64,000 nucleotides of DNA from an uncultured Gammaproteobacteria bacterium. GTDB taxonomy: Bacteria; Pseudomonadota; Gammaproteobacteria; UBA6429; Thiohalophilaceae. The notes under the pieces were generated by a model. The model saw nothing but the letters and a program-made list of their open reading frames with translations, did no database searches and had not been told where the DNA came from. The DNA is taken from the NCBI GenBank assembly GCA_913064945.1, contig CAJYAN010000009.1, positions 62,001 through 126,000 on the forward strand, read 5' to 3'. Made by a program: the position numbers and the translations under genes. Positions 26,072 through 42,195 of this stretch are shown here, in pieces (position 1 is the first letter of the stretch; the number at the start of each line of letters is the position of its first letter).

Positions 26072-26530
26072 ATGAGACTTCCAGAACTTAAAATCTCAAA
26101 CAGCAAGGGTTTCACCCTTATCGAACTGATGATCGTTGTGGCGATTATCGGTATTTTGGCTGCCATCGCGATTCCGGCTTATAACGGCTATATCAAGAAT
26201 GCGCGCATGCAGAAGGTCACTGACCATGTGGATACTGCCCGCCGCTGGATTACTGCCGGTTTCGCTTCTGATTCCAGCCGTGTCTCCATGGGCTTGTCGT
26301 CCAATATGCCGACAACAGGAGCAAATATTGCAACAGCGCTTAACTCAAAAGGTGCCAAGGCACCTGAAGGTGGTGTTGCCCCTTACTCAGATACCGCAGA
26401 TGATGCCCACGGCGTAGTTAGAATTACTGCAACACTGGCTGGTGGCTCATGGGCGAGCGGTGACTATGCTACTATTTATACCCCAAAATACCTGGAACTA
26501 ACTGCTAGCAGCATGCAAGTAACCTACTAA
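26072..26530 (+). CDS. pilA: Major type IV pilin PilA
   Basis: Major subunit of the type IV pilus. The 152-residue prepilin has leader [13 protein letters not shown], then [28 protein letters not shown], with Phe1 and Glu5 for PilD cleavage and methylation. AGGAG eight bases before the ATG supports the start. Unusually, the protein contains no cysteine, so the C-terminal disulfide loop that closes the D-region of most PilA proteins is absent. It is Ala/Ser/Thr-rich, which would offer O-glycosylation sites. It stands alone upstream of a strong terminator. Confidence 0.92.
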
Positions 26531-26542
26531 AGTTATAGAATT

Positions 26543-26571
26543 AAAGGCTCCTCACACGAGGGGCCTTTTTT
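26543..26571 (+). terminator. Rho-independent terminator of pilA
   Basis: AAAGGCTCCTC pairs with GAGGGGCCTTT (one T-G pair) around a four-base ACAC loop and runs into six T residues, twelve bases after the pilA stop codon. It would separate the abundant pilA message from the second pilin gene. Confidence 0.85.
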
Positions 26572-26610: not shown

Positions 26611-27027
26611 ATGATGAAGAACAGAACCGGTGGATTTACCCTGATTGAAATCCTGATTGCGATGGCAATTCTGGCTGTCCTAGCGGGTATTGCAATACCG
26701 ATCTACCGTAACTATACCGAGAGCGCCCGTGCGACCGAATGTGCCAACGAAGTGCATGCAATAAAACTTGCTGAAGCAGAGTTTTTTCTGGTCAATAACA
26801 CCTATTTTGATGGTACTGACGCTACCGCTCTAAAGAAAAATAGTTTCGGCGTTTACCTTCCCTCATCTAATGCCACTGCCGGTACTTCTGTATGTACCTA
26901 CAAGGTCACTGCAGGCCCTGCGGGGATTGCCACACAATATGCCATTAATGCCGTACCAAGAACTGGTGGAGCACTTGATGGTACGACACTAAACATGAAT
27001 TCATGTAACTACTCACCCTGTCCATAA
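26611..27027 (+). CDS. Second type IV pilin-like protein, minor pilin
   Basis: A 138-residue prepilin with leader MMKNRTGG and FTLIEILIAMAILAVLAGIAIPIYRNYTESA, i.e. Phe1 and Glu5. Unlike PilA it has four cysteines (TEC in the long helix, SVCTY, NSC and SPC near the end), so one or two disulfides are possible. It begins 40 bp after the pilA terminator, with only a poor ribosome-binding site (AAGAAG). It is closer to PilE-type pilins than to Gsp pseudopilins. It could be a minor pilin, an alternative major pilin, or a tip subunit. Confidence 0.85.
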   Translation: MMKNRTGGFTLIEILIAMAILAVLAGIAIPIYRNYTESARATECANEVHAIKLAEAEFFLVNNTYFDGTDATALKKNSFGVYLPSSNATAGTSVCTYKVTAGPAGIATQYAINAVPRTGGALDGTTLNMNSCNYSPCP

Positions 27028-27058: not shown

Positions 27059-27916
27059 ATGCAGCGTGATTTACTAAACGCAAAACTCAAGGCTTTTTCC
27101 ATTCACGTTGGGATTAGCCTGGCAATCTTTGTACTTCTCCTTTTTTTAATTCTGTTTCAATGGTATCCCCCCCCGTTCTTTAGCACCGATGGCGGCTGGC
27201 AAGGACTGCGACTCATTATTTTTGTCGACCTGGTACTGGGTCCATCTCTCACCTTCATAGTATTTAATCCTCAGAAGCTACGCAGACTTCTCAAAATGGA
27301 CCTGACCATTATCGCTATTTGCCAGATACTGGCATTGTCGTGGGGCATCTGGGCCGTGCATAATGAAAGACCCTATCTAGCTGTGTTTGCCGATGGTGCT
27401 TTTTACACTCTGCCCTATTACCAATTGAAAGAGACGGGGCTTAGCAAAGCCGATATCGCCAAATTTGATATAGGCAAGACGCCAATCAAAATTTACGTGG
27501 ATATCCCTACAGATAAGGCTAAATATTTTGCCCTACTTACCAAATCGGTCAGAACAGAACCGTTTCAGTTTATGGGTGACCTGTACCAGCCATTTGATCA
27601 TCACAGTATTAAAGCCGTCAGCCGCTACAGCATCAACATGCAGGCCTATATCAAGGGTGAAGCAAAATCATGGAACCGTGAATACCAGCACTTTGTCAAT
27701 AATGAACCACGCTTGCGCGATATGCTGTTTCTTAGCCTGCACGGCCGGTATGGGAAATATATTGTTGTGTTTGACAGTAAGACATTAACCTTTCGTAAAG
27801 TACTGGACATCCCGCCACCAGGCATCGATGAAATTATTTGGGGCAAGCAGGAAGCAATGAAGCGTCGAATCCGTACGCAACAACTCAAACACGCGCTGAC
27901 GCGACCCAAAAAATAG
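27059..27916 (+). CDS. tfpZ: TfpZ-like type IV pilin accessory protein
   Basis: A 285-residue membrane protein of the TfpZ/TfpB-type accessory family that sits directly beside pilin genes in Pseudomonas, Acinetobacter and Moraxella. Three membrane helices in the first 105 residues (AFSIHVGISLAIFVLLLFLI; GLRLIIFVDLVLGPSLTFIVF; LTIIAICQILALSWGIWAVH) are followed by a periplasmic-type domain with RPYLAVFADGAFYTL and a basic C terminus. Family members influence pilin assembly or stability; their mechanism is not settled. The gene starts 31 bp after the second pilin, so it is probably in that message. Confidence 0.8.
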   Translation: MQRDLLNAKLKAFSIHVGISLAIFVLLLFLILFQWYPPPFFSTDGGWQGLRLIIFVDLVLGPSLTFIVFNPQKLRRLLKMDLTIIAICQILALSWGIWAVHNERPYLAVFADGAFYTLPYYQLKETGLSKADIAKFDIGKTPIKIYVDIPTDKAKYFALLTKSVRTEPFQFMGDLYQPFDHHSIKAVSRYSINMQAYIKGEAKSWNREYQHFVNNEPRLRDMLFLSLHGRYGKYIVVFDSKTLTFRKVLDIPPPGIDEIIWGKQEAMKRRIRTQQLKHALTRPKK

Positions 27917-28033: not shown

Positions 28034-30019
28034 ATGTCATTACCAATAGAAAAAAACAGCACAATCCCGACAACTTCCCGCCTAATCATTTTTGGTGTGA
28101 CACTGGCAATTCTGCTTCTACCCGTTTTGATTTATATGCCAGGTTTGAGCGGTCCATTTATTTTTGATGACAAAGCCAATATTGTCGATAACAAAAATAT
28201 CCAGATCAATCAACTTTCTCTAACTACTATAAATGAAGCAGCGCATTCGCTCAGTTCCGGAGCCCTTGGACGTCCTCTTGCTGGCATCAGTTTTGCTATC
28301 AATTATTATTTAGCAGGTGGCCTTACACACACATTTGGCTATAAAGTTTTTAACCTTATTGTACACATCATTAATGGTTTTCTTATCTTCTGGGTGGTAT
28401 CGCTCATCATAGCGCAATTACCGGGGCGGTCGGTGTTTCCCACTGAGACAGCTAATAACAAAAAAAACATTCTGATTTTTGCAGGCCTCTGCGCCATCAT
28501 CTGGGTCATTCACCCGATCCAATTAACCAGTGTGCTTTACGTTGTGCAACGCATGACATCGATGGCCGCACTATTTATTATGCTGTCAATAATTGCCTAT
28601 ATTTATGCAAGGAATGCCTTAAACAGGAGAGAAAACTATAGAGCCCTAAGCTATTTCTCTGCTGCAGCACTCTCCGCTGTAACCAGCGCAGCATGCAAGG
28701 AAACTGCCTTGTTGTTACCCCTGTATCTTGGGCTGATTGAATTTAGCCTGTTTTATTCGCAGCCACCCTGGAGCCATTGGCAACGACTTCCAAGACTTTG
28801 GCGTACATATCTTCTAAGCGGCTTAATCATCGTTTTTATTCTGATAGTCTTTTTTGTCATAGAATTCTCGCTCCCACGTTATGCGAATCGTGATTTTACG
28901 ATGTTTGAACGCATACTGACAGAGACCAGAATACTATTATTTTACCTTGGTCAGATCTTTGTACCACGACTTTCCAGTTTCGGTATTTACCATGACGACA
29001 TTGCAGTTTCCACCTCGCTATTCTCTCCGTGGACAACACTGCCATCTGTGATTGTGATTATAGGCATACTTTTCTCTGCCTTTCACTATCGCCGTAAATT
29101 GCCATTGTTGGCCTTTGCAATATTATGGTTTTTTAGCAGTCATGCCATTGAATCAACTGTTTACCCCCTGGAGCTAATCCACGAACACCGCAACTATCTC
29201 GCCAGCCTGGGTCCCATCTTGCTCATTGTCTATGGGCTTCTGAGCATAATATGGAGATTGCAGACAAAACTGATCTGGGCAGTAATACCTCTCATCGTGT
29301 TGAGTCTTGTGATGACAACAACTGTGCGCAGTATGCAATGGGCGGACTCCCTCAATTTACTTGAGGCCGAGACCAATTATCACCCGGACTCACCACGCGC
29401 ATGGGGTGACTTGTACACCACCCAGATCAAATCAAATATGCCTGTCGAAGCCCTGAAATCATTACAAAATGCGATACGACTTCGGCCCAAAAATCCTGGC
29501 TATTATCTGACGTTGTATATCTACGCCAAAGCATTCGACGCAAATCTAGCCACCAACGCCTATAACAACCTGCTTATGCATATTGCCGATGACCCAGAAA
29601 GCTATACATTAGTTAGTCAGCTACAATCGATTAACAAATGTCTGGACACTACCTGCAAAGATTTGCAAAAAGATTTTGGCATTTGGGTCACTGAAGCCAT
29701 GAAATATAGCAACTCTCCCCGATACAAATATTACATGGCCTGTTACTTGTATGCACGACATGATTTTAATGCTTCGCTACAGTTTCTAAACCAGTCCATA
29801 AAAGATGGCCAGTCAAAACATGCCTCTCCTTTTATCAAACGCATACAAGTACTTCTTGCACTTAAAAAGTTCGATGCTGCTAAAACAGCCTATTCTGATT
29901 TACAGAAATTAAATAAAAAGAAATTATTTATCAGGTCATCGTATATGAAGGAAATACAAAGAGTAATAATAGAATCAGAACAGCGTCTGCACCAGTTGCA
30001 ACTACATCATCAACTTTAA
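28034..30019 (+). CDS. TMTC-like GT-C membrane glycosyltransferase with TPR tail
   Basis: A 661-residue protein. About eleven membrane helices cover residues 18-430, then TPR-like helices fill 440-640 (ALKSLQNAIRLRPKNPGYYL). The first external loop has the GT-C acidic motif FDDKANIVDNKNI; further family motifs are RPLAGISFAINYYLAGG, HPIQLTSVLYVVQRMTSMAAL and CKETALLLPLYL. This is the pattern of TMTC-type protein O-mannosyltransferases and bacterial relatives, which use lipid-linked sugars outside the membrane. Next to pilin genes, the protein is a candidate pilin glycosyltransferase, comparable in position to TfpW of Pseudomonas. Acceptor and sugar are not known. Confidence 0.75.
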   Translation: MSLPIEKNSTIPTTSRLIIFGVTLAILLLPVLIYMPGLSGPFIFDDKANIVDNKNIQINQLSLTTINEAAHSLSSGALGRPLAGISFAINYYLAGGLTHTFGYKVFNLIVHIINGFLIFWVVSLIIAQLPGRSVFPTETANNKKNILIFAGLCAIIWVIHPIQLTSVLYVVQRMTSMAALFIMLSIIAYIYARNALNRRENYRALSYFSAAALSAVTSAACKETALLLPLYLGLIEFSLFYSQPPWSHWQRLPRLWRTYLLSGLIIVFILIVFFVIEFSLPRYANRDFTMFERILTETRILLFYLGQIFVPRLSSFGIYHDDIAVSTSLFSPWTTLPSVIVIIGILFSAFHYRRKLPLLAFAILWFFSSHAIESTVYPLELIHEHRNYLASLGPILLIVYGLLSIIWRLQTKLIWAVIPLIVLSLVMTTTVRSMQWADSLNLLEAETNYHPDSPRAWGDLYTTQIKSNMPVEALKSLQNAIRLRPKNPGYYLTLYIYAKAFDANLATNAYNNLLMHIADDPESYTLVSQLQSINKCLDTTCKDLQKDFGIWVTEAMKYSNSPRYKYYMACYLYARHDFNASLQFLNQSIKDGQSKHASPFIKRIQVLLALKKFDAAKTAYSDLQKLNKKKLFIRSSYMKEIQRVIIESEQRLHQLQLHHQL

Positions 30020-30133
30020 CATCAACCCAGGTGATAATGTCCACTTATTCACAAGAAATGACAGAGACTATTGCTGTCAATGTAGTTGGTCAATCAAATA
30101 ACTCACCGTTTCACGACTAACGAAATATTACGC

Positions 30134-31309
30134 ATGCATATACTCCTTCTCACCACATCCTTTCCACTAAGACCTACTTCCGCTAGCGGCATTTTTGTTG
30201 AACGCCTGGCGTCGGAATTGGGACAGCAATGCCAACTTCATGTTTTGGCACCTGCATCGACAACCCCTCCTGCCTTGCCTAAAAATAAGACATATCAACT
30301 CACTACTTTTTCTTACGCTCCCCAAGAGTTACAGATCCTGGCCCAGACTAATGGTGGAATTCCTGCTGCACTCGTTACCAAACCCTGGTTGTGGCTATTA
30401 ATACCTCTATTTATCACATCGATGCTGTTCAGTTGTCTGTGGCATGCTCGGCGCACCAACCTCATTTTTGCCAACTGGTCAATTTGTGGTGCTATCGCTG
30501 GGATTGTAGGCCGCATATGGAGCCGACCAGTTATAACAACTCTTCGTGGTGAAGATGCAAATCGAATAGAATCTTCTCTGTTCCATCGTTTATTAATTTG
30601 GCTATGTCTCAATCTCGGTAATTCCGTCGTAACAGTAAGTAGTGATATAGCTACACGCATTAAACATATATTTCCAACCATGGCTCATAAAATACGCATG
30701 ATCCCCAATGGGGTTTATCTTGTTCAGGACTATAATAATCAGCATTCAGACAAACATGAAGACAAAGTACAACTAATTATTCTCGGCAGCTTAATCCCAA
30801 GGAAATCCGTGCAGACTGCACTAAGTGCCCTAGCCTGCTTACCAACAGACTACTTACTCACTATCATTGGTGATGGACCTGAAATGAATAGCTTGCGAAT
30901 GCTTGCAAACTCGCTTGGAATTGTTGAACGCGTCCATTTCGTTGGAAGTGTGCCTCCTGAACAGGTATCCACTTGGCTCAAAAATGCCGATGTCTTTATC
31001 GCTTCCAGCCTGAGCGAGGGGCGGCCCAATGCCATGCTTGAAGCCATGGCAACCGGCCTGCCAATAATCGCCACAAATATACCGGGACATCGTGAACTGG
31101 TAACAACCAATGTGAATGGTAATTTTTTTGCCATTAATGATGTGGATGGACTTGTTATCAGCTTACTTTCACTTCACGATAAGAACCTTCGGCAACGTTA
31201 TGGAGAGGCATCTCGGCATTACATCGTTGAACAGGGATTAACTTGGGAGAATTCGGCGAGGCTTTATATGAATCTATTCACACAACTGACTTCAGAAAAT
31301 AAACACTGA
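30134..31309 (+). CDS. Glycosyltransferase family 4
   Basis: A GT-B retaining glycosyltransferase that would add a sugar from a nucleotide donor on the cytoplasmic face. The start is set at ATG 30134 (391 residues, MHILLLTTSFPLRPTSASG), because the frame upstream begins only with TTG. A membrane-associated segment lies near residues 85-105. The C-terminal half has LGSLIPRKSVQTALSAL, IIGDGPEMNSL and the donor-binding E-x7-E motif in SEGRPNAMLEAMATGLPII. First GT of the glycan island; asnB follows at one base. Confidence 0.85.
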   Translation: MHILLLTTSFPLRPTSASGIFVERLASELGQQCQLHVLAPASTTPPALPKNKTYQLTTFSYAPQELQILAQTNGGIPAALVTKPWLWLLIPLFITSMLFSCLWHARRTNLIFANWSICGAIAGIVGRIWSRPVITTLRGEDANRIESSLFHRLLIWLCLNLGNSVVTVSSDIATRIKHIFPTMAHKIRMIPNGVYLVQDYNNQHSDKHEDKVQLIILGSLIPRKSVQTALSALACLPTDYLLTIIGDGPEMNSLRMLANSLGIVERVHFVGSVPPEQVSTWLKNADVFIASSLSEGRPNAMLEAMATGLPIIATNIPGHRELVTTNVNGNFFAINDVDGLVISLLSLHDKNLRQRYGEASRHYIVEQGLTWENSARLYMNLFTQLTSENKH

Positions 31310-31310
31310 T

Positions 31311-33164
31311 ATGTGCGGTTTTTGCTTTCTATTCGATCGGTACACCCCCCCCGCTCTAGCTAAGCAGCGTGTGACAGAATGCTTATTAGCTATGCAACAT
31401 CGTGGCCCTGACGCTGGTCGTATTGAAGCGTCCGGTGCTGCCATACTAGGCCATCGACGGCTTTCCATCATTGATCTTACTGGCAGCAAACAACCTATGG
31501 CTGATCCATCAGGCCGCTATCTACTTGCCTATAATGGTGAAATCTACAACTATCATGAAGCACGCAATCAACTTGCTGGGCGCTGGTGCTTTACCACCAA
31601 TGGCGATACAGAAGTGCTACTTGCCGGACTAATACTTGATGGTGTGAACTTTCTTAAACATCTTGAGGGCATGTGGGCATTTGCTCTTTGGGATTCCTTG
31701 GAGCGTCAGTTGTTGCTTGGCCGCGATCGAATGGGCAAAAAACCACTCTTCTACCAAATCCTGCCAAAAGGCGGACTTGCCTGCGCCTCCGAATTATCAG
31801 CACTACGTAAACTGAGCGCCATCCCTTGGCATGAAGACGAACATAGCACTGCCGACTACCTTCGTTATGGCTATAATATGCCTGGTTATACAGCCTGGCA
31901 GGAAGTTGGTGAAATCATGCCTGGTCATATTGCACAATGGCAACCGGATGACAAACTACACCAGACTACCTGGTGGCAGATACAACAGCATAGTTTCGCA
32001 GGTAATACGCAACAAGCTACAACAATGTTGCATGAGTCTCTGGTGGCAGCTGTCGAACGGCGAATGGTAGCCGACGTAGAGGTTGGCGCTTTTCTGTCAG
32101 GCGGCGTCGACTCTTCACTCATATGCGCCATTATAAGAAAGGAACTCGACAAGCCACTCAAAACATTTACGATTGGTTTTGAAGAGGCTGCCTTTGACGA
32201 ACGATGTTACGCTAGACTTGCTGCCGACGCACTTGGAACTGAGCATTACGAGGAAGTATTTGCTGGTTGGGATGAGGACGAACTTGAGCGTCTCTTGCTC
32301 AATCATGTCGGCCAACCTTTCGCCGATTCATCACTGCTACCCACCGCAATGGTCTCTCGTGTCGCCGCAAGGCAAGTGAAGGTAGCGCTCTCAGGTGACG
32401 GAGGTGATGAACTATTCTCCGGATACCAAAGATACCAGGCACGCAATATCCTGCGCTGGTATACACGTCTTCCAAAAGGATTGCAGCACCTTGCCGAAAA
32501 ATCTATTCGCGCCTTACCGGAACCTACAGTGCACCATAGTAGAAGTCTAATCAAAAAAGCACATCTCTTCATGGACATCGTGGAACGCCAGCAAGCAGAA
32601 ACGCCGTATTTCGCACCGCTGATGTTTAGCCCCGACCAGCTTCGCAAGCTGGCTCCAGGGCTTGAGGCTATGGGGCACTCACCGCCAGGAATACTCGATG
32701 TAACTAAGCCTGATGACATAACACGGATGATGTATGCCGATGCACTTATTTACCTGCCACAAGATATTCTTACCAAAGTAGATCGTTCTAGTATGGCGCA
32801 TTCATTAGAGACTCGTTCCCCCTTTCTTGACCAACAAGTGGTCGAGCTCGCCTTTTCCATACCCCGCTACTGGCACAGGCACGGCTTTAGCGGAAAACGC
32901 ATGCTTAAGAAATCATTTTCTAAACTGATACCCTCAGCAATATGGCGTCGGCGCAAACAGGGATTTGGTGTACCAATTCACGACTGGTTTCGTGGCAGAC
33001 TGGGAGAACGACTGCGGTCCCTGGCAAATGAAAATATAAGCGGTATTCTCTCAGCTCCAGCAATTACTGCACTTCTCAATGAACACAAACAAGGTGGTCG
33101 TGACCACGGTTATCGTCTCTGGCTTATCTACGCCTACCTACTTTGGAAGCAACAAAATCTGTGA
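31311..33164 (+). CDS. asnB: Asparagine synthase-type amidotransferase
   Basis: A 617-residue glutamine-dependent amidotransferase. The N-terminal Ntn domain has the catalytic Cys2 (MCGFCF), MQHRGPDA and AYNGEIYNY; the C-terminal ATP pyrophosphatase domain has FLSGGVDSSLI, TFTIGFEEAAFDE and LSGDGGDELFSGYQRY. Such AsnB homologues are frequent in polysaccharide clusters, where they may amidate uronic-acid or acyl groups rather than make asparagine. The neighbours here are all glycan genes, so a sugar-modifying role is inferred. It overlaps the next GT by four bases (GTGA). Confidence 0.85.
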   Translation: MCGFCFLFDRYTPPALAKQRVTECLLAMQHRGPDAGRIEASGAAILGHRRLSIIDLTGSKQPMADPSGRYLLAYNGEIYNYHEARNQLAGRWCFTTNGDTEVLLAGLILDGVNFLKHLEGMWAFALWDSLERQLLLGRDRMGKKPLFYQILPKGGLACASELSALRKLSAIPWHEDEHSTADYLRYGYNMPGYTAWQEVGEIMPGHIAQWQPDDKLHQTTWWQIQQHSFAGNTQQATTMLHESLVAAVERRMVADVEVGAFLSGGVDSSLICAIIRKELDKPLKTFTIGFEEAAFDERCYARLAADALGTEHYEEVFAGWDEDELERLLLNHVGQPFADSSLLPTAMVSRVAARQVKVALSGDGGDELFSGYQRYQARNILRWYTRLPKGLQHLAEKSIRALPEPTVHHSRSLIKKAHLFMDIVERQQAETPYFAPLMFSPDQLRKLAPGLEAMGHSPPGILDVTKPDDITRMMYADALIYLPQDILTKVDRSSMAHSLETRSPFLDQQVVELAFSIPRYWHRHGFSGKRMLKKSFSKLIPSAIWRRRKQGFGVPIHDWFRGRLGERLRSLANENISGILSAPAITALLNEHKQGGRDHGYRLWLIYAYLLWKQQNL

Positions 33165-34246
33165 AACATATCGCTTTACTGTTACCTGAATTAGAGGCAG
33201 GTGGAGCCCAGCGAGTTATTTTGCTGCTCGCTCGTGAATTTGTTACACGAGGTCACTGTGTGGACCTTGTCATCTTACGTGCCACTGGCTCACTGCAGAG
33301 TGAAATTCCAGATGGTGTGAACTTGGTTAATCTTGCCGCACGCGAGTATGGCTTTGGTCAGCTAGGGTTTACATGCACATCAGTCGTGCGGTTAACAATG
33401 TGGTTAAAACGAGCAAGACCCGAGGTACTGCTGAGCACCATTACAGGTGCAAACCTAGTAGCTTTACTTGCCAGAAAAATGCTTTATTCATCACCAAAAA
33501 TAATCATACGAGAAGCTGCCACTCTCAAAAATGCTAGAACTACACTATTCACAAAAGCCATGAGTTGGTTGTACCCTCAAGCCGATGCAGTAATCGCGCT
33601 TAGTCATATCATGGCAGAGGAACTTACAGCAGAACTCGGCGTATCACCTTCTAAAATACATCTCATATCAAATCCTGTGGATGTAGACTTCATCCAGGCA
33701 CAGGCACAACTTCCTCTAGATCATTCATGGTTGAATGACACTCGACTTAAAATAATAGTATCAGTAGGCCGCTTAGTCCCACAAAAAGACTATACAACGC
33801 TTTTACGTGCGTTTGCCCTGTTACCATCTTCTCTTCCAATACGTCTTATAATCATAGGAGAAGGTTCTGAACACAAGTCGTTAGAACATCTTGCTGTGGA
33901 GCTCTCTATTTCTAAGAAAGTGGAATTTGTTGGCTTCGATAAAAATCCATGGCGTTGGATGGCGCGCGCCGATCTCTTTGTGCTCTCTTCTCTCTGGGAA
34001 GGATACCCAAATGTCTTACTTGAAGCCCTGGCACTTAACTTACCCGTGATTTCGACTGAATATGATGCATCCGTACATGATTTAGCAGCTCATTATCATT
34101 TTTCAGTTGTGCCAGCTGCTGATCCAGAATCATTAGCACTAGCACTGGACTCATTACTTCAAAATGGCTGTCAACCAAATAAATACAAGCCGATTCACAT
34201 CAAAACGAAGATCGTTGACAACTATCTTGAGGTGTTAGCTAGATAG
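33161..34246 (+). CDS. Glycosyltransferase family 4
   Basis: The GTG at 33161 overlaps the asnB stop (GTGA) and gives 361 residues beginning MKHIALLLPELEAGGAQRV, where GGAQR is the usual acceptor-side loop. The donor domain has VSVGRLVPQKDYTTLLRAFALL, IIGEGSEHKSLEHLA and SLWEGYPNVLLEALALNLPVI with both motif glutamates. It ends the plus-strand half of the island; the next genes are convergent. Sugar specificity is not predictable. Confidence 0.85.
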   Translation: MKHIALLLPELEAGGAQRVILLLAREFVTRGHCVDLVILRATGSLQSEIPDGVNLVNLAAREYGFGQLGFTCTSVVRLTMWLKRARPEVLLSTITGANLVALLARKMLYSSPKIIIREAATLKNARTTLFTKAMSWLYPQADAVIALSHIMAEELTAELGVSPSKIHLISNPVDVDFIQAQAQLPLDHSWLNDTRLKIIVSVGRLVPQKDYTTLLRAFALLPSSLPIRLIIIGEGSEHKSLEHLAVELSISKKVEFVGFDKNPWRWMARADLFVLSSLWEGYPNVLLEALALNLPVISTEYDASVHDLAAHYHFSVVPAADPESLALALDSLLQNGCQPNKYKPIHIKTKIVDNYLEVLAR

Positions 34247-34253
34247 TGATTAT

Positions 34254-35006
34254 TCAACCTTGCGTTGAACAACCTTTAATAATAAAACCTCCACCAGAAC
34301 ACAACGATATCATTTTTTCTTTTTTATAACTTAAGAACTCATCTATAGCTCGCGTTGCTCCCGGACATGTTGTACATCCATAATCGTCGCACAGTATAAT
34401 TCCACCTGAATTCATCCGGGGATAAAAGAATTTCATACTTTCTAAAGTTGGTTCGTACAAATCAACATCAATGTGAACGAATGAAAAAGTTTTATTTTTC
34501 ACTTCATTGAATCGAGATGGTATCCATCCTTTTAGCAATGTTACATTTTGAAATTTCGACAATGCTGTTTCAACCATCTTCATTGATGCACTTAGATCAC
34601 CCTTGGTCCAATGCCCTCCATCATCGACTCCCGGGTGAGAAAGACCTTCGAAAGAATCAAAAACAAAGTGTTGGTGTACGCTTTGTGTGATTCTTTCATT
34701 AAAGTCACAGATTAGGTATGAGCTTGCACCAAGGTAGACACCACATTCTGCAGTATCACCTGAGACTTCTAAGGTTAGCCTGAGAAGTTGACCTAGCATC
34801 CAACGCCTATCTGTATTCATTCCATTATGTTCGTTAAATCTCTCTAGGTACTGGTTAAATTCATAATTATCCCACCAGCCCATTTGAGGCCATTTAAAAC
34901 GATAAGGCGGGAATATAACTCTAGCAACTCGTATCATAAGTTCAAAACGAGTCAGCTGATCACCCTCGACAAGCTTTTGTAATGCTCGCAAATATTTAGC
35001 TAACAT
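34254..35006 (-). CDS. TylF/MycF-family O-methyltransferase
   Basis: A 250-residue SAM-dependent methyltransferase of the TylF (macrocin O-methyltransferase) family, whose members methylate sugar hydroxyls. Motifs: TAECGVYLGASSYLICDF (SAM loop), FVFDSFEGLSHP, HIDVDLYEPTLESMKFFYP (metal-binding Asp pair) and GGIILCDDYGCTTCPGA. In a glycan cluster it likely O-methylates a surface sugar, for instance at a chain end. The gene is convergent with the GT4 before it and separated by 88 bp from the GT4 upstream on its own strand. Confidence 0.82.
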   Translation of the reverse strand: MLAKYLRALQKLVEGDQLTRFELMIRVARVIFPPYRFKWPQMGWWDNYEFNQYLERFNEHNGMNTDRRWMLGQLLRLTLEVSGDTAECGVYLGASSYLICDFNERITQSVHQHFVFDSFEGLSHPGVDDGGHWTKGDLSASMKMVETALSKFQNVTLLKGWIPSRFNEVKNKTFSFVHIDVDLYEPTLESMKFFYPRMNSGGIILCDDYGCTTCPGATRAIDEFLSYKKEKMISLCSGGGFIIKGCSTQG

Positions 35007-35094
35007 GTGGATATCTCAAAAAATATATAATTGTAGAAAATAGCTGCTTTCTTCAATGATTTTTCAATATAAGTTGTGAATATAAGTAGCTCAT

Positions 35095-36207
35095 TTACAT
35101 CTTCACGGCATAAAATAAATTTATATACTCATCAGCAATTAAATCAATATCAAATTTCTCTTTTGCCTTAATTCGTGCTCTGGATCCCATTTCAAACAGA
35201 GTGCGATGGTTAATACTCAATGCATATTTAAGTGCTTTAGCTAGAGCATTCACATCATTGACAGGGACGATCCAACCAATGCCATTATCAATAATGTCCT
35301 CTGAACCACTTACATTCGTAACAATCGCTGGCAGCCCATGTGCAATTGCTTCAAGCAAGGCACCGGACATACCTTCGTAGTGTGAAGGCAGTACAAAAAG
35401 GTTGGCATGTCGTAATTGAACAGATATTTTTCCTGGCGGCTTCGCACCAGCAAAGTGTATTATCTGTTCAAGCCCAAAATCATAAACTTTCTTAACTAGC
35501 TTTTGATGTGACGGTCCATCACCTATGATGTCAAGCGAAAATGCAATTGGCAATTCTTTCAGAAGGTTAACTGCATCTAATAATATATCGAGACCTTTTT
35601 GTTCTACCAGCCTACCAACAAACAGGACTCGAGTCCTCTGATCTTGTTTTGGCATACTGCGCTTAATCGTTGGTATAGTCACGCCATTTGGTATATGGCT
35701 AATGTGTATATCATTTAATCCAACAGAAAAAATCTCTTGCTCGATTTCCTTACTCATTGCGTTAATGCCTGTTACTCCATTTCGAAGTAACCATAACAAA
35801 ATTTTCTTTGCGGGTGACTTTAGAATAGTAGCAACATCACCTCCTGTGGAAGAACAAGCTGGGCAAGCAATAACAGGTTGTTTTAGTCGATATACGATTT
35901 TTGCTAATGCTGCGGTCAATGCCTGCTCTCGCAAGAATCTGCAATATATCACATCAAATCCTTCCCTATTTTTCCACAAGAACCACATAGTCCCAACCAG
36001 ATAACTTACGGCACGTAGTACCCGATTTTGATGTAGGGTAGGAATACGAAAGATGCTCAGGTTGTCGTTTTGAAGCGGGCAATTTGCATGTCCCGCAATC
36101 ATTACCTTGTGACTAGTTGCCGCCCACCGAGTAGCTAGATTCAGAGTTTGCACTTCAGCGCCACCGACAACACCGGGCGGGACATTAGCCAGTATAAGAA
36201 TGCGCAT
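35095..36207 (-). CDS. Glycosyltransferase family 4
   Basis: A 370-residue GT-B enzyme starting MRILILANVPPGVVGGAEVQTLNLA. The donor domain shows LFVGRLVEQKGLDILLDAVNLL, IIGDGPSHQKLVKK and SHYEGMSGALLEAIAHGLPAI. The ATG lies inside the end of the flippase gene (23-bp overlap), so the two are coupled. It is AT-rich and uses more A/T-ending codons than the gsp and pil genes around the island. Confidence 0.85.
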   Translation of the reverse strand: MRILILANVPPGVVGGAEVQTLNLATRWAATSHKVMIAGHANCPLQNDNLSIFRIPTLHQNRVLRAVSYLVGTMWFLWKNREGFDVIYCRFLREQALTAALAKIVYRLKQPVIACPACSSTGGDVATILKSPAKKILLWLLRNGVTGINAMSKEIEQEIFSVGLNDIHISHIPNGVTIPTIKRSMPKQDQRTRVLFVGRLVEQKGLDILLDAVNLLKELPIAFSLDIIGDGPSHQKLVKKVYDFGLEQIIHFAGAKPPGKISVQLRHANLFVLPSHYEGMSGALLEAIAHGLPAIVTNVSGSEDIIDNGIGWIVPVNDVNALAKALKYALSINHRTLFEMGSRARIKAKEKFDIDLIADEYINLFYAVKM

Positions 36208-37447
36208 GTGACAAGTGTTGAGTAAGTTTGTGAAACATTAATAGTGCAATCAGATACTGATTCAACGATAAAATAGCGGCTATACCAACAATATCAAATA
36301 TTGGGAATAAGAATATTCCTCCAACTATACTGAATACCACACCAACTGCAGTTATAAAGATAAGTGCACGTGACAAACCAAGTGTTATCAGACGGCGGCT
36401 TATTATTCCTGTCAGAATAAAACCTGGCATACCTAATACAAATAACAAAACGCAATTTCGTACTACGGACGTAGAAGTTTCTGGCGGGAGATGTATCCAT
36501 TGGCTAATTAATGGAAATAAAACCCATAACAGAACCCCGATAAATAACCAAAGTAGACTCCATACGATAGCTGAGCGTACTATCATGCGCCAGCCACTCG
36601 ATTCCTCTTTGGTGCCATTGATCCGAGCGAGATATACTAATGTTACATTGCCAACCCCAATTGTAGCCAATGAAGCAACAATGGAATATATACGCTCAGC
36701 TGCCTCAAATAAACTTACAGTACCTGCATGCCCAGTCGAAGCTATCCATCTCATCACCAACGGTATAACTCCTGCAATTGCAGCGGCAATAATCAAGTAT
36801 TGCGCTGCCTGCGGAAAACATAAAGGTTCATACTCTTCTTTAAATGCAAGCCATTCTCGTGCTAACCAGAGGAGAATAACCATACGTAAGTAGTCAGCTA
36901 GCGCAATACCTGCCAAAAGCCAGTGGAGTAGTGGTATATGCGGCCATATAACCATATAGGTTAAAACCGGAAACATTCTCAAACCCCATGTCAGACCAGG
37001 CATTGCATATCTGTGTTGAGCATTGAGTGCGGCCGTAGCTGGTGCAGCGATAAGCCCACTGATTGCTATAAGTGCAATCGAGAATGAACTGACAACAGAT
37101 GCAACCATTGATAATGGCCTGTATATCAGCACTGCCGATATTAAAGAAGCAATTACCCCTGCTACTATTGCCAGCCGCAAGAATTTTACTAAATTTCGCT
37201 TCACATCGGATCTTATGAATTCAGGGACAAGTGCAGTTATACATACGTTTGCAAGAGTACCTTGAACAAAAAAAGCACATGCCATCGCCAGAAAAAAACT
37301 GTCAGTTAGTGTATTTGCACCATGAATAGTTATCACTATAAAAGGAAGTAAAATATTCACAGCACGGCCGCATATTTCCCCCATGGATGAAACACCTACG
37401 CGAACGGCTACGCGCCGTACCATCGATCGTTTCATACTCATAGCCAT
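36185..37447 (-). CDS. MurJ/Wzx-like lipid-linked glycan flippase
   Basis: A 420-residue protein from the ATG at 37447 (a GTG 13 codons upstream is also in frame). It has about twelve to fourteen hydrophobic segments and the MOP-superfamily look of MurJ (FFLAMACAFFVQGTLANVCITALVPEF; GLIAAPATAALNAQHRYAMPGL). In a cluster with GTs its most likely job is to flip an undecaprenyl-linked glycan. The housekeeping MurJ is normally elsewhere and longer (about 510 residues). No Wzy polymerase is recognisable nearby, so the unit may be transferred without polymerisation. Confidence 0.75.
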   Translation of the reverse strand: MAMSMKRSMVRRVAVRVGVSSMGEICGRAVNILLPFIVITIHGANTLTDSFFLAMACAFFVQGTLANVCITALVPEFIRSDVKRNLVKFLRLAIVAGVIASLISAVLIYRPLSMVASVVSSFSIALIAISGLIAAPATAALNAQHRYAMPGLTWGLRMFPVLTYMVIWPHIPLLHWLLAGIALADYLRMVILLWLAREWLAFKEEYEPLCFPQAAQYLIIAAAIAGVIPLVMRWIASTGHAGTVSLFEAAERIYSIVASLATIGVGNVTLVYLARINGTKEESSGWRMIVRSAIVWSLLWLFIGVLLWVLFPLISQWIHLPPETSTSVVRNCVLLFVLGMPGFILTGIISRRLITLGLSRALIFITAVGVVFSIVGGIFLFPIFDIVGIAAILSLNQYLIALLMFHKLTQHLSHAHSYTG

Positions 37448-37615
37448 AATTACATCACCAACTTTATCTAAACTTCCTGTACCCACTGACAGAGTCTGTA
37501 GTAATTTTTTAAAACCATAGTATATCTGCCAGATGCTTACTAAATATGCATATCACTGGGATTACAAAACAGCAAACCTACAGACCTTTAAATTCAAAAA
37601 TTTAATTCATGTGTT

Positions 37616-38356
37616 TCAGTTATTGCGGGTTAGAGTCAGCCGATAGCTGAAGGGCATAATTTTAGACTCAGGCATTATGATATTGAGAAGCCAGCCTACA
37701 GTATTAATTACAGGTATCATTAACAGTATAAATGGTGAAACTACCATTATAAATCTTTTTTGCGTAATAGCATCGAGCACCGACTTGGCAAGAGCAATTG
37801 AAAAAAGCGCAGCCACAGTTTCAAAAGATGAGGTGGACTCAACAATATCAATGATTTCAAGATTCAGTTGCTTCACTTGGATTCGCAACCCATGGATGCT
37901 CCAACGTTGATAATCATGCGGTTCATCATGAAGCGGATATACAAATGGTACATGTATGAGCAGTTTGCCACCTTTCTTCAAGACTCTTGACGCCTCTGCG
38001 AAAGCACGTTCAGGACGCTGAAGATGTTCAAGCACGTCAAGTAGCGCAACTGTATCAGTGCTTTCAGAGGAGATTGGTAGCGCTTCTGCATCTGCATAAA
38101 TATCAACCATACCTGAATATCCCAAGTCAATCGTCTCAGGGTAATCAATCCCAACATATTCAATATTTTCTGTCAGTTTTTCTCGTAATTTTCCATTGCC
38201 ACAACCAATATCCAGAAGCAAACCAAAAGCATGTTGATTCACCCATGCGATTGTTCTTGAACGTTGGCGCAATACTAACCATTGAGGATGCATAGGTGTA
38301 TTTTCTAGGGGGGCCAACCAACGCCGTATTTTTATTGAAGCAGTAGTCGATTTCAT
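37616..38356 (-). CDS. SAM-dependent methyltransferase (class I)
   Basis: A 246-residue protein with SAM motif I LLDIGCGNGKLREKL, acidic motif II YVGIDYPETIDLG, ALLDVLEHLQRPERAFAEASRVLKKGGKLLIHVPF and a hydrophobic C-terminal third with one or two membrane-associated segments (FIMVVSPFILLMIPVINTVGWLL). This Ubie/methyltransf_11 layout is common in O-antigen clusters. Target is unknown. It is 168 bp from the flippase start and 20 bp after the next methyltransferase gene. Confidence 0.78.
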   Translation of the reverse strand: MKSTTASIKIRRWLAPLENTPMHPQWLVLRQRSRTIAWVNQHAFGLLLDIGCGNGKLREKLTENIEYVGIDYPETIDLGYSGMVDIYADAEALPISSESTDTVALLDVLEHLQRPERAFAEASRVLKKGGKLLIHVPFVYPLHDEPHDYQRWSIHGLRIQVKQLNLEIIDIVESTSSFETVAALFSIALAKSVLDAITQKRFIMVVSPFILLMIPVINTVGWLLNIIMPESKIMPFSYRLTLTRNN

Positions 38357-38376
38357 GTTAATTATAATTAATCTAA

Positions 38377-39201
38377 TTATGCTATCTTATTAAATACAAA
38401 TTCATTACATCCAAGCGATTGTCGTGTGACAAGTTTTGTCATAACAAAGCCTCTCTCTGTATAAAAATCAAAAACTACTTCTGGTTTTGCCGTTTCATAA
38501 GGATATCCTCCTAACCAATCTATCCAGTCATGGTATAAGGACATACCTCGACTCTGTCGATATTCGGTATACCTACGAAGTGGATTTTTTTTACGGAGCA
38601 CATCACCTAAAAGTCCCATCACTGAAAAAAATGGAAAAAAAATCAATATTACAAATAATCGACTAATACGACCAGAGCAATAAATCTGTTTCACTTTCAA
38701 CCATATTTTCGAAATAAAATCCTGATCATTATATAGAGCGATAAAGAGCCATCCATTTGGACACGCTAATGGAGATATGTTCTCCATAGCCTGCCACATG
38801 TTGCCGGTGTGGTGTAGCACGCCCCATGAGTAAACAATATCAAATCGTCCAAGTCGACTGAGGTATGCAGTATCCAGAACTGAACCTTTTTCTATTTTCC
38901 ATGATGATTCGTCCCGACAATAGCGTCGTCTCATTTCAGTCGTAGTTGCTACAGACTCCGAATCATAATCAAATGAATAAACCTTTGCCCCAAGCCGCCA
39001 GGCTGCAAGTGAAAATAACCCACTACCACTCCCCACATCCAAAAAAGTCAACCCATCAAGGCGCTCTTTACCTAACATCTTTTGTAATGAAGTCACTGCT
39101 TCTTGTATGCGGTCTTCATCTACCACATCTAGAAAACGAGACCAGTTTTCACCAAATGCAAAGCGTTTGCTATGCTTAATTTCTGTTGAGAAATCTGCCA
39201 T
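38377..39201 (-). CDS. SAM-dependent methyltransferase (class I)
   Basis: A 274-residue protein. SAM motif I is TFLDVGSGSGLFSLAAWRLG, followed by VYSFDYDSESV and IVYSWGVLHHTGNMWQAMENI. A hydrophobic stretch at about 180-200 (LFVILIFFPFFSVMGLLGDVL) is unusual for a soluble methyltransferase and suggests membrane attachment. It is the second of two adjacent methyltransferases and starts 9 bp after the GT2 stop, in one transcription unit. Substrate unknown. Confidence 0.78.
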   Translation of the reverse strand: MADFSTEIKHSKRFAFGENWSRFLDVVDEDRIQEAVTSLQKMLGKERLDGLTFLDVGSGSGLFSLAAWRLGAKVYSFDYDSESVATTTEMRRRYCRDESSWKIEKGSVLDTAYLSRLGRFDIVYSWGVLHHTGNMWQAMENISPLACPNGWLFIALYNDQDFISKIWLKVKQIYCSGRISRLFVILIFFPFFSVMGLLGDVLRKKNPLRRYTEYRQSRGMSLYHDWIDWLGGYPYETAKPEVVFDFYTERGFVMTKLVTRQSLGCNEFVFNKIA

Positions 39202-39210
39202 AGTGTACCG

Positions 39211-40077
39211 TCACTTATCCTGTGAAGAATGTTTGTACATTAATTGTGTAATTTGTTCTGATACAAGTCCGATAAGAAAAATAGTAACAGATGCCGTCAG
39301 TAAAAATACCGTTGCCAGCGAGAGGCGGCTTTCTGTTAGGTAGGTAAGCACGTAATATCCAACACCAATCATGCCGTGTAATAAGGCAATAGGCAGAAAC
39401 AGTTTCAACGGTGAGTATAGTGTCCCAATCTTGAATATAATTAACAAGAATCGCACGCCGTCTTTGAAAATGCTGATATGACTCTTACCTAACCGCTTTC
39501 CCACATTAATTGGTAAATAACCGACAAGATAACCGGCACGAAAAAAAGCCATGGTACTGGTGGTTGGGTAGGAAAAACCATTTGGCAGGAGATACAGGAA
39601 CTCTCGAAATCGCGCGCGTCGTACGACACGAAATCCCGAGGTGAGATCTTTTATCTCATGCCCGGTCATGTAACTGGCCAGCCGATTATAAAATCGGTTG
39701 GCCAGACTGCGTCCGATGCTGGCCTGCGAGCGACTGTCCCTCGCTCCGACCACCATATCAAAGCCCTTGTCCAGGTGATCAAGGAGCCTCTGAATGTCGG
39801 CAGGGTTATGCTGGCCGTCAGCGTCCAGAAATGCCAGTATTTCTCCCTGCGCAAAACGGGCACCATGCTTGATGGCCGCTCCGTTACCCAGGCTATAGGC
39901 ATGCGTCACGCACTTTACCTGATGCCTTTCGCAAACGGCTACCGTGTCATCACTTGAGCCATCATTGACGACAATAATTTCGGCATCGTCATAACGACGT
40001 CGCAGCCCCGGCAGGAGGCGTTCTAATGACCTGGCTTCATTTTTGGCGGGTAAAATAATGCTGAGTGACCTTGGCAT
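39211..40077 (-). CDS. GT2 glycosyltransferase, polyprenyl-phosphate sugar synthase-like
   Basis: A 288-residue GT-A enzyme of the dolichol-phosphate-mannose synthase type: SIILPAKNEARSLERLLPGL at the N terminus, EIIVVNDGSSDDT, the DXD-like FLDADGQHNP, then two C-terminal membrane helices (FLPIALLHGMIGVGYYVL; LATVFLLTASVTIFLIGLVSE). Such enzymes make polyprenyl-phosphate sugars that GT-C enzymes use outside the membrane, which would connect it with the GT-C protein at 28-30 kb. First gene of the minus-strand run; its base composition is nearer that of the core genes. Confidence 0.83.
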   Translation of the reverse strand: MPRSLSIILPAKNEARSLERLLPGLRRRYDDAEIIVVNDGSSDDTVAVCERHQVKCVTHAYSLGNGAAIKHGARFAQGEILAFLDADGQHNPADIQRLLDHLDKGFDMVVGARDSRSQASIGRSLANRFYNRLASYMTGHEIKDLTSGFRVVRRARFREFLYLLPNGFSYPTTSTMAFFRAGYLVGYLPINVGKRLGKSHISIFKDGVRFLLIIFKIGTLYSPLKLFLPIALLHGMIGVGYYVLTYLTESRLSLATVFLLTASVTIFLIGLVSEQITQLMYKHSSQDK

Positions 40078-40473: not shown

Positions 40474-42195
40474 ATGGCGACTCCCAATACACAAATCCCA
40501 TTAAGTGGCCTGGCACGTAAGTTGGTTCAGGACGGTCTCCTGAGCGATGCCCAGGCCCAGCAGGCCAACAATGAAGCCTTAAAGGCCAAGGTCCCCTTCG
40601 TCTCTTACGTGGTCGAAAAAAAGCTCCTGCCGGCCATTGAGCTTGCCCAGGCGGCCTCCACGGAGTTTGGTGTGCCCCTGCTGGATATCATGACCGTGGA
40701 TATCGACCCGGATGTCGCCAAGCTGGTGGCAGAAAAACTCATCCGCAAACACCATACCCTGCCCATTTTCAAACGCGGTAGCCGCCTGTTCGTGGCTGTC
40801 TCTGACCCGACCAATCTCCAGGCCCTGGATGAGATCAAGTTTCATGTCGGTATGACCACCGAGCCGATCCTGGTGGAAGAGGACAAACTGGGAAAGGCCA
40901 TCGACAAGGCCATTGAGGCCAATGACACCTCATTATCGGAACTCGCCGGTGGTGATACCGACCTGGACGATGTCGAGTTTGTCGATGAAGAGGCCGCGAA
41001 TGGCCCCGCACCAACCGAGTCAGACGCCGACGATACGCCCGTAGTGCGCTTCGTCAACAAGGTGTTACTGGATGCCATCAATAAAGGCGCGTCCGATATA
41101 CACTTCGAACCCTACGAGAAAAACTACCGTGTACGCTTCCGGGTCGACGGGATTTTAAAAGAAGTGGCCGCCCCCCCCATTGGCATGGGCCCACGCCTGT
41201 CAGCCCGCCTGAAGGTCATGTCCCGCCTGGACATCTCCGAGCGACGCGTACCACAGGATGGCCGAATCAAGCTCAACCTCTCCAAGAACCGTTCTATCGA
41301 CTTTCGTGTCAATACCTGTCCGACACTGTTTGGCGAAAAAATCGTCCTGCGTATTCTGGACCCTAATAGCGCCAAGCTGGGGATCGACGCCCTGGGCTTT
41401 GAGCCTGAACAAAAAGAAGTCTTCATGACCAACCTGAACAAGCCCTATGGCATGTTCCTGGTGACGGGTCCAACGGGTAGCGGTAAGACCGTCACGCTTT
41501 ATACCGGCGTTAATATCCTCAACGAGCCTAATATTAATATTTCAACAGCCGAGGACCCGGTGGAAATCAATATGCCGGGCATCAACCAGGTCAACGTCAA
41601 CCCCAAGGTCGGGCTGAACTTCGCCGATGCCTTGCGTGCCTTCCTGCGTCAGGACCCCGACGTGATTCTGGTAGGGGAAATTCGTGACCTGGAGACTGCC
41701 GAAATCGGTATAAAGGCGGCCCAAACTGGCCATATGGTGCTTTCGACTTTACACACCAATGATGCCCCACAGACCCTCACGCGCCTGGTTAATATGGGCG
41801 TGCCCCCCTTCAATATTGCCTCAGCGGTTAACGTCATCATTGCGCAGCGTCTCGCAAGGCGTCTCTGTACCCATTGCAAACAACCGGTTGATATCCCTAA
41901 GGGTGCCCTGCTTGAAGAGGGCTTCACTCAGGAAGATGTCGAGAAGGGCATCAAGGTCTATGGCCCCGTCGGCTGTGACCAGTGCAGTGATGGCTACAAA
42001 GGACGTGTTGGTATTTATCAGGTCATGCCGGTCTCTGAACAAATGGGCAAAATTATCATGGAAGGCGGAAATTCCATGCAGTTGGCCGAGCAGGCCAAAA
42101 AAGAAGGTGTTAAGGACTTACGCGAATCCGGGCTCAAAAAGGTCAGGGATGGCATGACCAGCCTGGAAGAAGTGAATCGCGTTACCAAAGAATAA
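40474..42195 (+). CDS. pilB: Type IV pilus extension ATPase PilB
   Basis: Hexameric motor for pilus extension, 573 residues. It has an N-terminal MshEN/T2SSE_N domain (residues 1-150), the ASDIHFEP box, Walker [11 protein letters not shown], Walker B LRAFLRQDPDVILVGEIRD, the His box TGHMVLSTLHTND, and a four-Cys zinc site (CTHC...CDQC). AAGG precedes the ATG. It shares its architecture with GspE in the same window but is plainly the PilB orthologue through its partners pilC and pilD. No pilT is in the window. Confidence 0.95.
   Translation: MATPNTQIPLSGLARKLVQDGLLSDAQAQQANNEALKAKVPFVSYVVEKKLLPAIELAQAASTEFGVPLLDIMTVDIDPDVAKLVAEKLIRKHHTLPIFKRGSRLFVAVSDPTNLQALDEIKFHVGMTTEPILVEEDKLGKAIDKAIEANDTSLSELAGGDTDLDDVEFVDEEAANGPAPTESDADDTPVVRFVNKVLLDAINKGASDIHFEPYEKNYRVRFRVDGILKEVAAPPIGMGPRLSARLKVMSRLDISERRVPQDGRIKLNLSKNRSIDFRVNTCPTLFGEKIVLRILDPNSAKLGIDALGFEPEQKEVFMTNLNKPYGMFLVTGPTGSGKTVTLYTGVNILNEPNINISTAEDPVEINMPGINQVNVNPKVGLNFADALRAFLRQDPDVILVGEIRDLETAEIGIKAAQTGHMVLSTLHTNDAPQTLTRLVNMGVPPFNIASAVNVIIAQRLARRLCTHCKQPVDIPKGALLEEGFTQEDVEKGIKVYGPVGCDQCSDGYKGRVGIYQVMPVSEQMGKIIMEGGNSMQLAEQAKKEGVKDLRESGLKKVRDGMTSLEEVNRVTKE

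Follow-up and report, generated by a model that had tools for sequence, protein, structure and literature searches.

Gene content of the locus

The window under analysis is a 64-kb stretch of a 3.2-Mb gammaproteobacterial genome (contig 9, positions 62001-126000). In it, the slot between the type IV pilin genes pilA/pilin2/tfpZ and pilB contains a 12-kb island of ten glycan genes, located on both strands. An initial reading of the DNA (hereafter, the sequence-only reading) had described the island as a candidate locus either for pilin glycosylation or for a strain-variable surface glycan. The features of the region are listed below; L and G numbers indicate loci and genomes of the comparison.

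26072..26530, + strand: pilA, major type IV pilin, presumed acceptor (PF07963 N_methyl; NF007862 partial)
26543..26568, + strand: terminator-like hairpin directly 3' of pilA (11 pairs plus T run)
26611..27027, + strand: pilin2, second pilin (PF07963)
27059..27916, + strand: tfpZ-like pilin accessory protein (NF041437, E 2e-39, nearly full length; 135.6 bits, below the cut-off of 200)
28034..30019, + strand: GT-C+TPR membrane protein, predicted pilin glycosyltransferase (conserved motifs, predicted fold, pilin adjacency, TPR tail)
30086..31309, + strand: GT4a glycosyltransferase (PF00534; homologues in L092, L133, L189, L213)
31311..33164, + strand: AsnB-type amidotransferase (PF00733 and PF13537)
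33143..34246, + strand: GT4b glycosyltransferase (PF00534; PglJ-like match below cut-off)
34254..35006, - strand: TylF-type O-methyltransferase (PF05711)
35095..36207, - strand: GT4c glycosyltransferase (PF00534)
36185..37486, - strand: MOP/MurJ-like flippase candidate (PF03023, E 1e-5; 24.6 bits, below the cut-off of 27.4)
37616..38356, - strand: MT1, class-I methyltransferase (PF08241)
38377..39201, - strand: MT2, class-I methyltransferase (PF13489)
39211..40077, - strand: GT2, predicted polyprenyl-phosphate sugar synthase (PF00535; DxD; hydrophobic C-terminus)
40474..42195, + strand: pilB, conserved right flank (TIGR02538, 870 bits; syntenic in the family)

All ten genes are open reading frames (ORFs), and Pfam and NCBIfam searches detected the domains expected from the sequence-only reading for the glycosyltransferases, the amidotransferase and the methyltransferases. 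The MurJ label corresponds to a match below cut-off. The membrane part of the GT-C+TPR protein matches no Pfam family, and its GT-C assignment is based on conserved motifs and predicted fold. As read from the sequence, an ATG at 30134 and a GTG at 33161 are likelier starts for GT4a and GT4b, respectively, than the mechanical ORF starts. Neither a Wzy-type polymerase nor an initiating phosphoglycosyltransferase was found in Pfam scans of the island. A search of the genome with the PF00114 pilin profile gave zero matches, so that the pilins of the window fall outside that model; PilA contains zero cysteines. Hairpins of the kind found after pilA attenuate pilin accessory genes elsewhere (PMC11841053). 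A second glycan locus, considered at 52-64 kb of the window, was rejected, the region being composed of division and cell-wall genes.

The GT-C+TPR family and its association with pilin genes

When 369 gammaproteobacterial genomes were searched with a profile built from the alignment of 14 relatives of the GT-C+TPR protein, 104 were found to encode the family. Loci were collected from about 40 of these 104 genomes and from a genome scan; 50 of them had enough flanking sequence and, one pair being duplicate, 49 were distinct. In 37 of the 49 the GT-C gene directly follows a pilin gene, and these pilin-adjacent loci span about 28 families, according to our count from the genome tables. The genome under study contains 17 N_methyl genes, and adjacency to a pilin would be expected by chance for well under 1% of its genes. 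PglL enzymes were identified by evidence of this kind, 21 out of 31 being pilin-adjacent (PMC3643930). In many loci the pilin is in turn preceded by two genes whose lengths would suit a histidine kinase and an NtrC-type regulator, as in pilSR-pilA; the one pair tested was confirmed.

Tandem GT-C copies are common. Tandem or paired GT-C+TPR genes follow a single pilin gene in L127, L130, L134, L143, L145, L150 and L154, and may possibly encode transferases for different sites or sugars. In L150, only GT-C copies and a GT2 gene lie between the pilin and pilBCD.

Of 45 loci, 37 contain a partner GT2 at least 45% identical to that of the window, and in 29 it lies no more than 1 kb away. In a phylogenetic tree the partner GT2s form one clade (92/85), to which neither seven GT2 paralogues encoded in this genome nor other GT2s belong; branches are long outside the clade, and the tree is usable for this split alone. 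The GT2 of the window carries D85-A-D87 and a hydrophobic C-terminus, and its nearest solved relatives in PDB are ArnC, the sll0501 GtrB and DPM synthase (DPMS). Among NCBIfam models, AglJ (TIGR04182) matches this GT2 best (E 6e-31), with a score of 108 against a cut-off of 325, and no NCBIfam equivalog model reached its cut-off. ArnC, GtrB, DPM synthase and AglJ all make polyprenyl- or dolichyl-monophosphate sugars, and the GT2 is similarly predicted to be a polyprenyl-phosphate sugar synthase. Since GT-C+TPR and GT2 genes are found behind a pilin gene in many Gammaproteobacteria, they probably decorate the pilus with sugar. A search of open-licence papers, with preprints outside its coverage, for pilins in connection with TMTC or TPR-bearing GT-C proteins, and for the family itself, retrieved no description.

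Motifs, fold and topology of the GT-C+TPR protein

Of 53 aligned sequences, 50-53 retain each of ten residues: D45, D46, R80, R173, K222, E223, D321, E384, R386 and Y388. Motifs M1-M5 and M7 have been described for the eukaryotic O-mannosyltransferases TMTC1-4 (PMC7801869), and the order and loop positions of the motifs in the GT-C+TPR protein, mapped by eye, resemble them. The topology inferred for the protein includes 11 membrane helices, with the motif loops and the TPR tail predicted to be periplasmic.

Foldseek searches with the full-length model were dominated by TPR proteins, and for this reason the GT-C domain was folded alone. The first six matches of the domain model are Pmt4, STT3 and ArnT chains, with probability 0.97-1.00 but weak E-values. 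The O-antigen-ligase domain (PF04932/IPR007016) was not matched by the window protein, nor by three relatives at E up to 0.5. PF08409 (DUF1736) similarly gave no match in the window protein or three relatives; a genome search with this model returned zero matches, with the controls equally silent.

Base composition and variability of the slot

The island has a GC content of 43.0%. The background, obtained from 20 stretches of the same genome, has a mean of 50.7% and a minimum of 46.3% over 179 overlapping 12-kb windows, and a mean of 50.6% (standard deviation 3.7) over 399 one-kb windows. Codon adaptation places the ten island genes at the 0-13th percentile, as opposed to the 84th and 94th for pilB and pilC. 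The AT-richness noted at first reading is borne out by the GC content. AsnB (49%) and GT2 (48%) are the island genes nearest to background GC, and the AT bias is thus uneven across the island.

In order to compare the same slot in relatives, pilB was located in 40 genomes belonging to the same family, and the stretches around this anchor were annotated. Many of them share a conserved frame, composed of divergent gspFEDC, pilA, a second pilin and pilBC. The last pilin gene and pilB are only 28-455 bp apart in 11 relatives, in agreement with the closeness noted in the sequence-only reading. In six others (L064, L065, L069, L072, L074, L076) the slot is filled by a single protein of 611-629 amino acids; the three of these proteins that were scanned all contained Wzy_C and TPR domains and are PglL/TfpO-like candidates. 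Unrelated candidate pilin modifiers, both TPR-tailed, therefore appear to replace each other in one slot. In two relatives (L063, L079) tfpZ is present without a GT-C gene; in one of them tfpZ and pilB are separated by the gene of a 329-amino-acid protein for which Pfam gave no convincing match (G027, L079:6635-7624).

Relatives of the GT-C gene, with 43-46% identity, adjoin tfpZ in G011 and G033. The latter genome also encodes a GT2 69% identical to that of the window, located on another contig just before a pilin-pilB pair (L083); in the window and in G033, unlike other loci, GT2 is found at the pilB end. G022, a third member of the genus including G011 and G033, has an empty slot (L070). 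Given the GT-C relatives in G011 and G033 and the empty or differently filled slots elsewhere, the island has a patchy distribution between conserved flanks. The refuting outcome named in the sequence-only reading, an island present in every relative and core-like in composition, was checked and not observed, and the strain-variability of the island is supported. A cysteine-free, TfpZ-associated PilA is found both in the window and in G033 (L086), while disulphide-loop pilins lie beside most GT-C genes.

Variable genes of the island

Close relatives of AsnB (E <= 1e-150) are present in five of the 369 genomes, including the one studied here. In each of the other four, the AsnB relative, 53-63% identical to that of the window, shares a pilus locus with a homologue of GT4a (L092, L133, L189, L213); such relatives were found nowhere else. 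GT4a and AsnB occur together with a GT-C gene in L092, L133 and L189. In L092 the pilin is beyond the contig end and pilBCD follows the cassette. L213 has no detectable GT-C gene, and a pilin-tfpZ pair follows. In this locus GT2 and GT4a are each split in two ORFs beside an intact AsnB (L213:5712-8146); a decaying cassette, an assembly error or phase variation are candidate readings.

TylF relatives were found in six of the 369 genomes. In the five other than the one studied here, three map to the GT4a-AsnB pilus loci, one to a short contig and one to a glycan locus without pilin. At the genome level, co-occurrence with GT-C is weak when taken alone (P 0.07 for AsnB relatives, P 0.02 for TylF relatives), and the evidence therefore consists in adjacency at the locus level. 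A proposed correspondence between the window flippase and a 414-amino-acid protein before pilB in L092 was judged unconvincing (23% identity over 64 residues, E 0.002).

The genes following GT2 at other loci include glycosyltransferases, methyltransferases, a nucleotidyltransferase and dehydratase/epimerases. In L013 a dTDP-4-amino-4,6-dideoxy sugar transaminase of the WecE type is located between pilin-GT-C-GT2 and pilB (L013:6280-8394), which hints at an amino-sugar glycan at that locus. In L018 a pair of genes between GT2 and pilB (L018:8057-10178) looks by eye like a Wzm/Wzt-type ABC-2 polysaccharide exporter, so that genes for other surface glycans may gather in the slot as well.

Comparison with known systems

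The locus shares with TfpO/TfpW-type pilin loci a (here predicted) pilin-modifying transferase right after pilA, a terminator-like hairpin after pilA, neighbors of the TfpX/Y/Z type and a variable slot. TfpO contains a Wzy_C domain, which the GT-C+TPR protein lacks. TfpW of P. aeruginosa is another pilin glycosyltransferase without Wzy_C; it uses an arabinofuranose donor made by a phosphoribosyl route, whereas the partner in the window is a GT2. Pfam scans of the ten island genes, to which the search was confined, revealed no donor gene of the phosphoribosyltransferase route. PglL, PglS and TfpM are also often pilin-adjacent, and a Wzy_C+TPR protein of this kind fills the same slot in relatives. 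According to a 2025 review, all known O-oligosaccharyltransferases (O-OTases) carry the O-antigen-ligase domain (PMC12645811); the window enzyme differs from PglL, PglS, TfpM and TfpO in lacking it.

In layout TMTC1-4 appear to resemble the window protein, with an N-terminal GT-C and a C-terminal TPR region and, in the mapping by eye, ordered DD, RP, R, KE, D and E/R/Y loop motifs. The window protein has no PF08409 match and keeps neither the Asp of M3 nor the DW tryptophan nor the exact ERxxY spacing, and its acceptor would be pilin instead of cadherin.

Three-component systems, made up of a polyprenyl-phosphate sugar synthase, a flippase and a GT-C protein, are an established scheme (PMC11127046). 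As in GtrA/GtrB/Gtr* and in Citrobacter GT136, the island combines a GtrB/ArnC-kind GT2, a flippase candidate and a GT-C protein; it differs in the additional GT4s, AsnB and methyltransferases, in the absence of GtrA and in the protein acceptor proposed. In the Haloferax Agl pathway dolichyl phosphate is primed by AglJ, the best NCBIfam match of GT2, and an extension on lipid monophosphate would be analogous to that pathway. The window transferase is not AglB, the organism is a bacterium and the linkage proposed is an O-linkage to pilin.

Interpretation

The island is likely to be a module dedicated to pilin O-glycosylation, inserted in the pilA-pilB slot and having the GT-C+TPR and GT2 genes as its core. 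In the proposed scheme, GT2 would load the first sugar onto polyprenyl monophosphate and the GT4s would extend the lipid-linked sugar; the glycan would be amidated by AsnB and O-methylated by the methyltransferases, and the lipid-linked product flipped by the MOP-type protein. The GT-C protein would then transfer the glycan to Ser/Thr residues in PilA, either ahead of pilus assembly or in its course. The sequence-only reading had left the lipid-linked donor to either GT2 or the GT4s; the evidence favors priming by GT2 and extension by the GT4s. Judged from sequence comparisons, pilin glycosylation is the best-supported reading for the GT-C+TPR and GT2 genes, on the basis of pilin adjacency in about 28 families, of the partner GT2 clade and of the PglL/TfpO-like replacement in the slot. 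The same role is probable for the remaining eight genes, whose part in the pathway, like the transfer to PilA, is proposed from their gene context.

Several observations weigh against this reading. About one fourth of the GT-C loci have no pilin directly upstream. The partner pilins showed no individual Ser/Thr that would be a convincingly conserved acceptor, and the window PilA, being cysteine-free, differs in type from most of them. In the window, GT2 is 9 kb away from GT-C and on the opposite strand. The fold matches are weak (E 0.03-0.28, TM 0.32-0.48), and genes similar to TylF, AsnB and MT2 are present in a glycan locus away from pilin (L191).

GT2 and GT-C might instead add a single sugar to pilin, as in three-component systems, which are already established (PMC11127046), the other eight genes making an unrelated surface glycan that shares the slot. 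The minimal arrangement of L150 would fit such a division, as would the great variation of the genes after the core, extending to the exporter of L018; such a division is considered rather doubtful, given that several families have GT4a and AsnB alongside the core and that the close relatives of AsnB were found just at pilus loci. It is still less probable that the whole island serves an O-antigen, capsule or exopolysaccharide unrelated to pilin, having landed among pilus genes by chance. Its gene mix is typical of surface-polysaccharide loci, its AT-richness and patchy distribution look like the result of transfer, and similar genes are found in a non-pilin locus of G079. Such an origin, however, leaves unexplained both the recurrence of GT-C+TPR/GT2 behind pilin genes across families and the Wzy_C+TPR substitution in the same slot, and the lack of polymerase and initiating enzyme in the Pfam scans also argues against it.

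The GT-C+TPR protein might also be a pilin assembly factor similar to TfpY/TfpZ, rather than a sugar transferase: tfpZ adjoins its gene, TPR tails often mediate protein contacts, and proteins of the TfpX/Y/Z type, at one time grouped with pilin-modifying functions, act in assembly (PMC11841053). The nearly invariant GT-C-type acidic pair and loop motifs in the 53 sequences, the GT-C chains at the top of the fold matches and the sugar-lipid synthase clade travelling with the family make this very improbable.

Beyond the single locus, the glycosylation reading leads to a broader proposal, advanced tentatively and considered possible at best: that of a so far undescribed class of pilin glycosyltransferases with a TMTC-like layout, widespread in Gammaproteobacteria, which would use a dedicated AglJ/GtrB-like GT2 and an oligosaccharide linked to polyprenyl monophosphate, and would resemble archaeal and eukaryotic protein glycosylation instead of the O-antigen-ligase route. 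The widespread, pilin-linked and uncharacterized GT-C+TPR/GT2 pair lifts the finding above a single strain-variable island. If the proposal is true, about one fourth of the sampled gammaproteobacterial species would carry a pilin-modification system outside the recognized O-OTase classes, and the family may include a bacterial counterpart of the TPR-bearing O-mannosyltransferases. In addition, since the pilin glycans of P. aeruginosa protect against pilus-specific phages (PMC11841053), the locus would offer a testable case of phage-pilus conflict in environmental bacteria.

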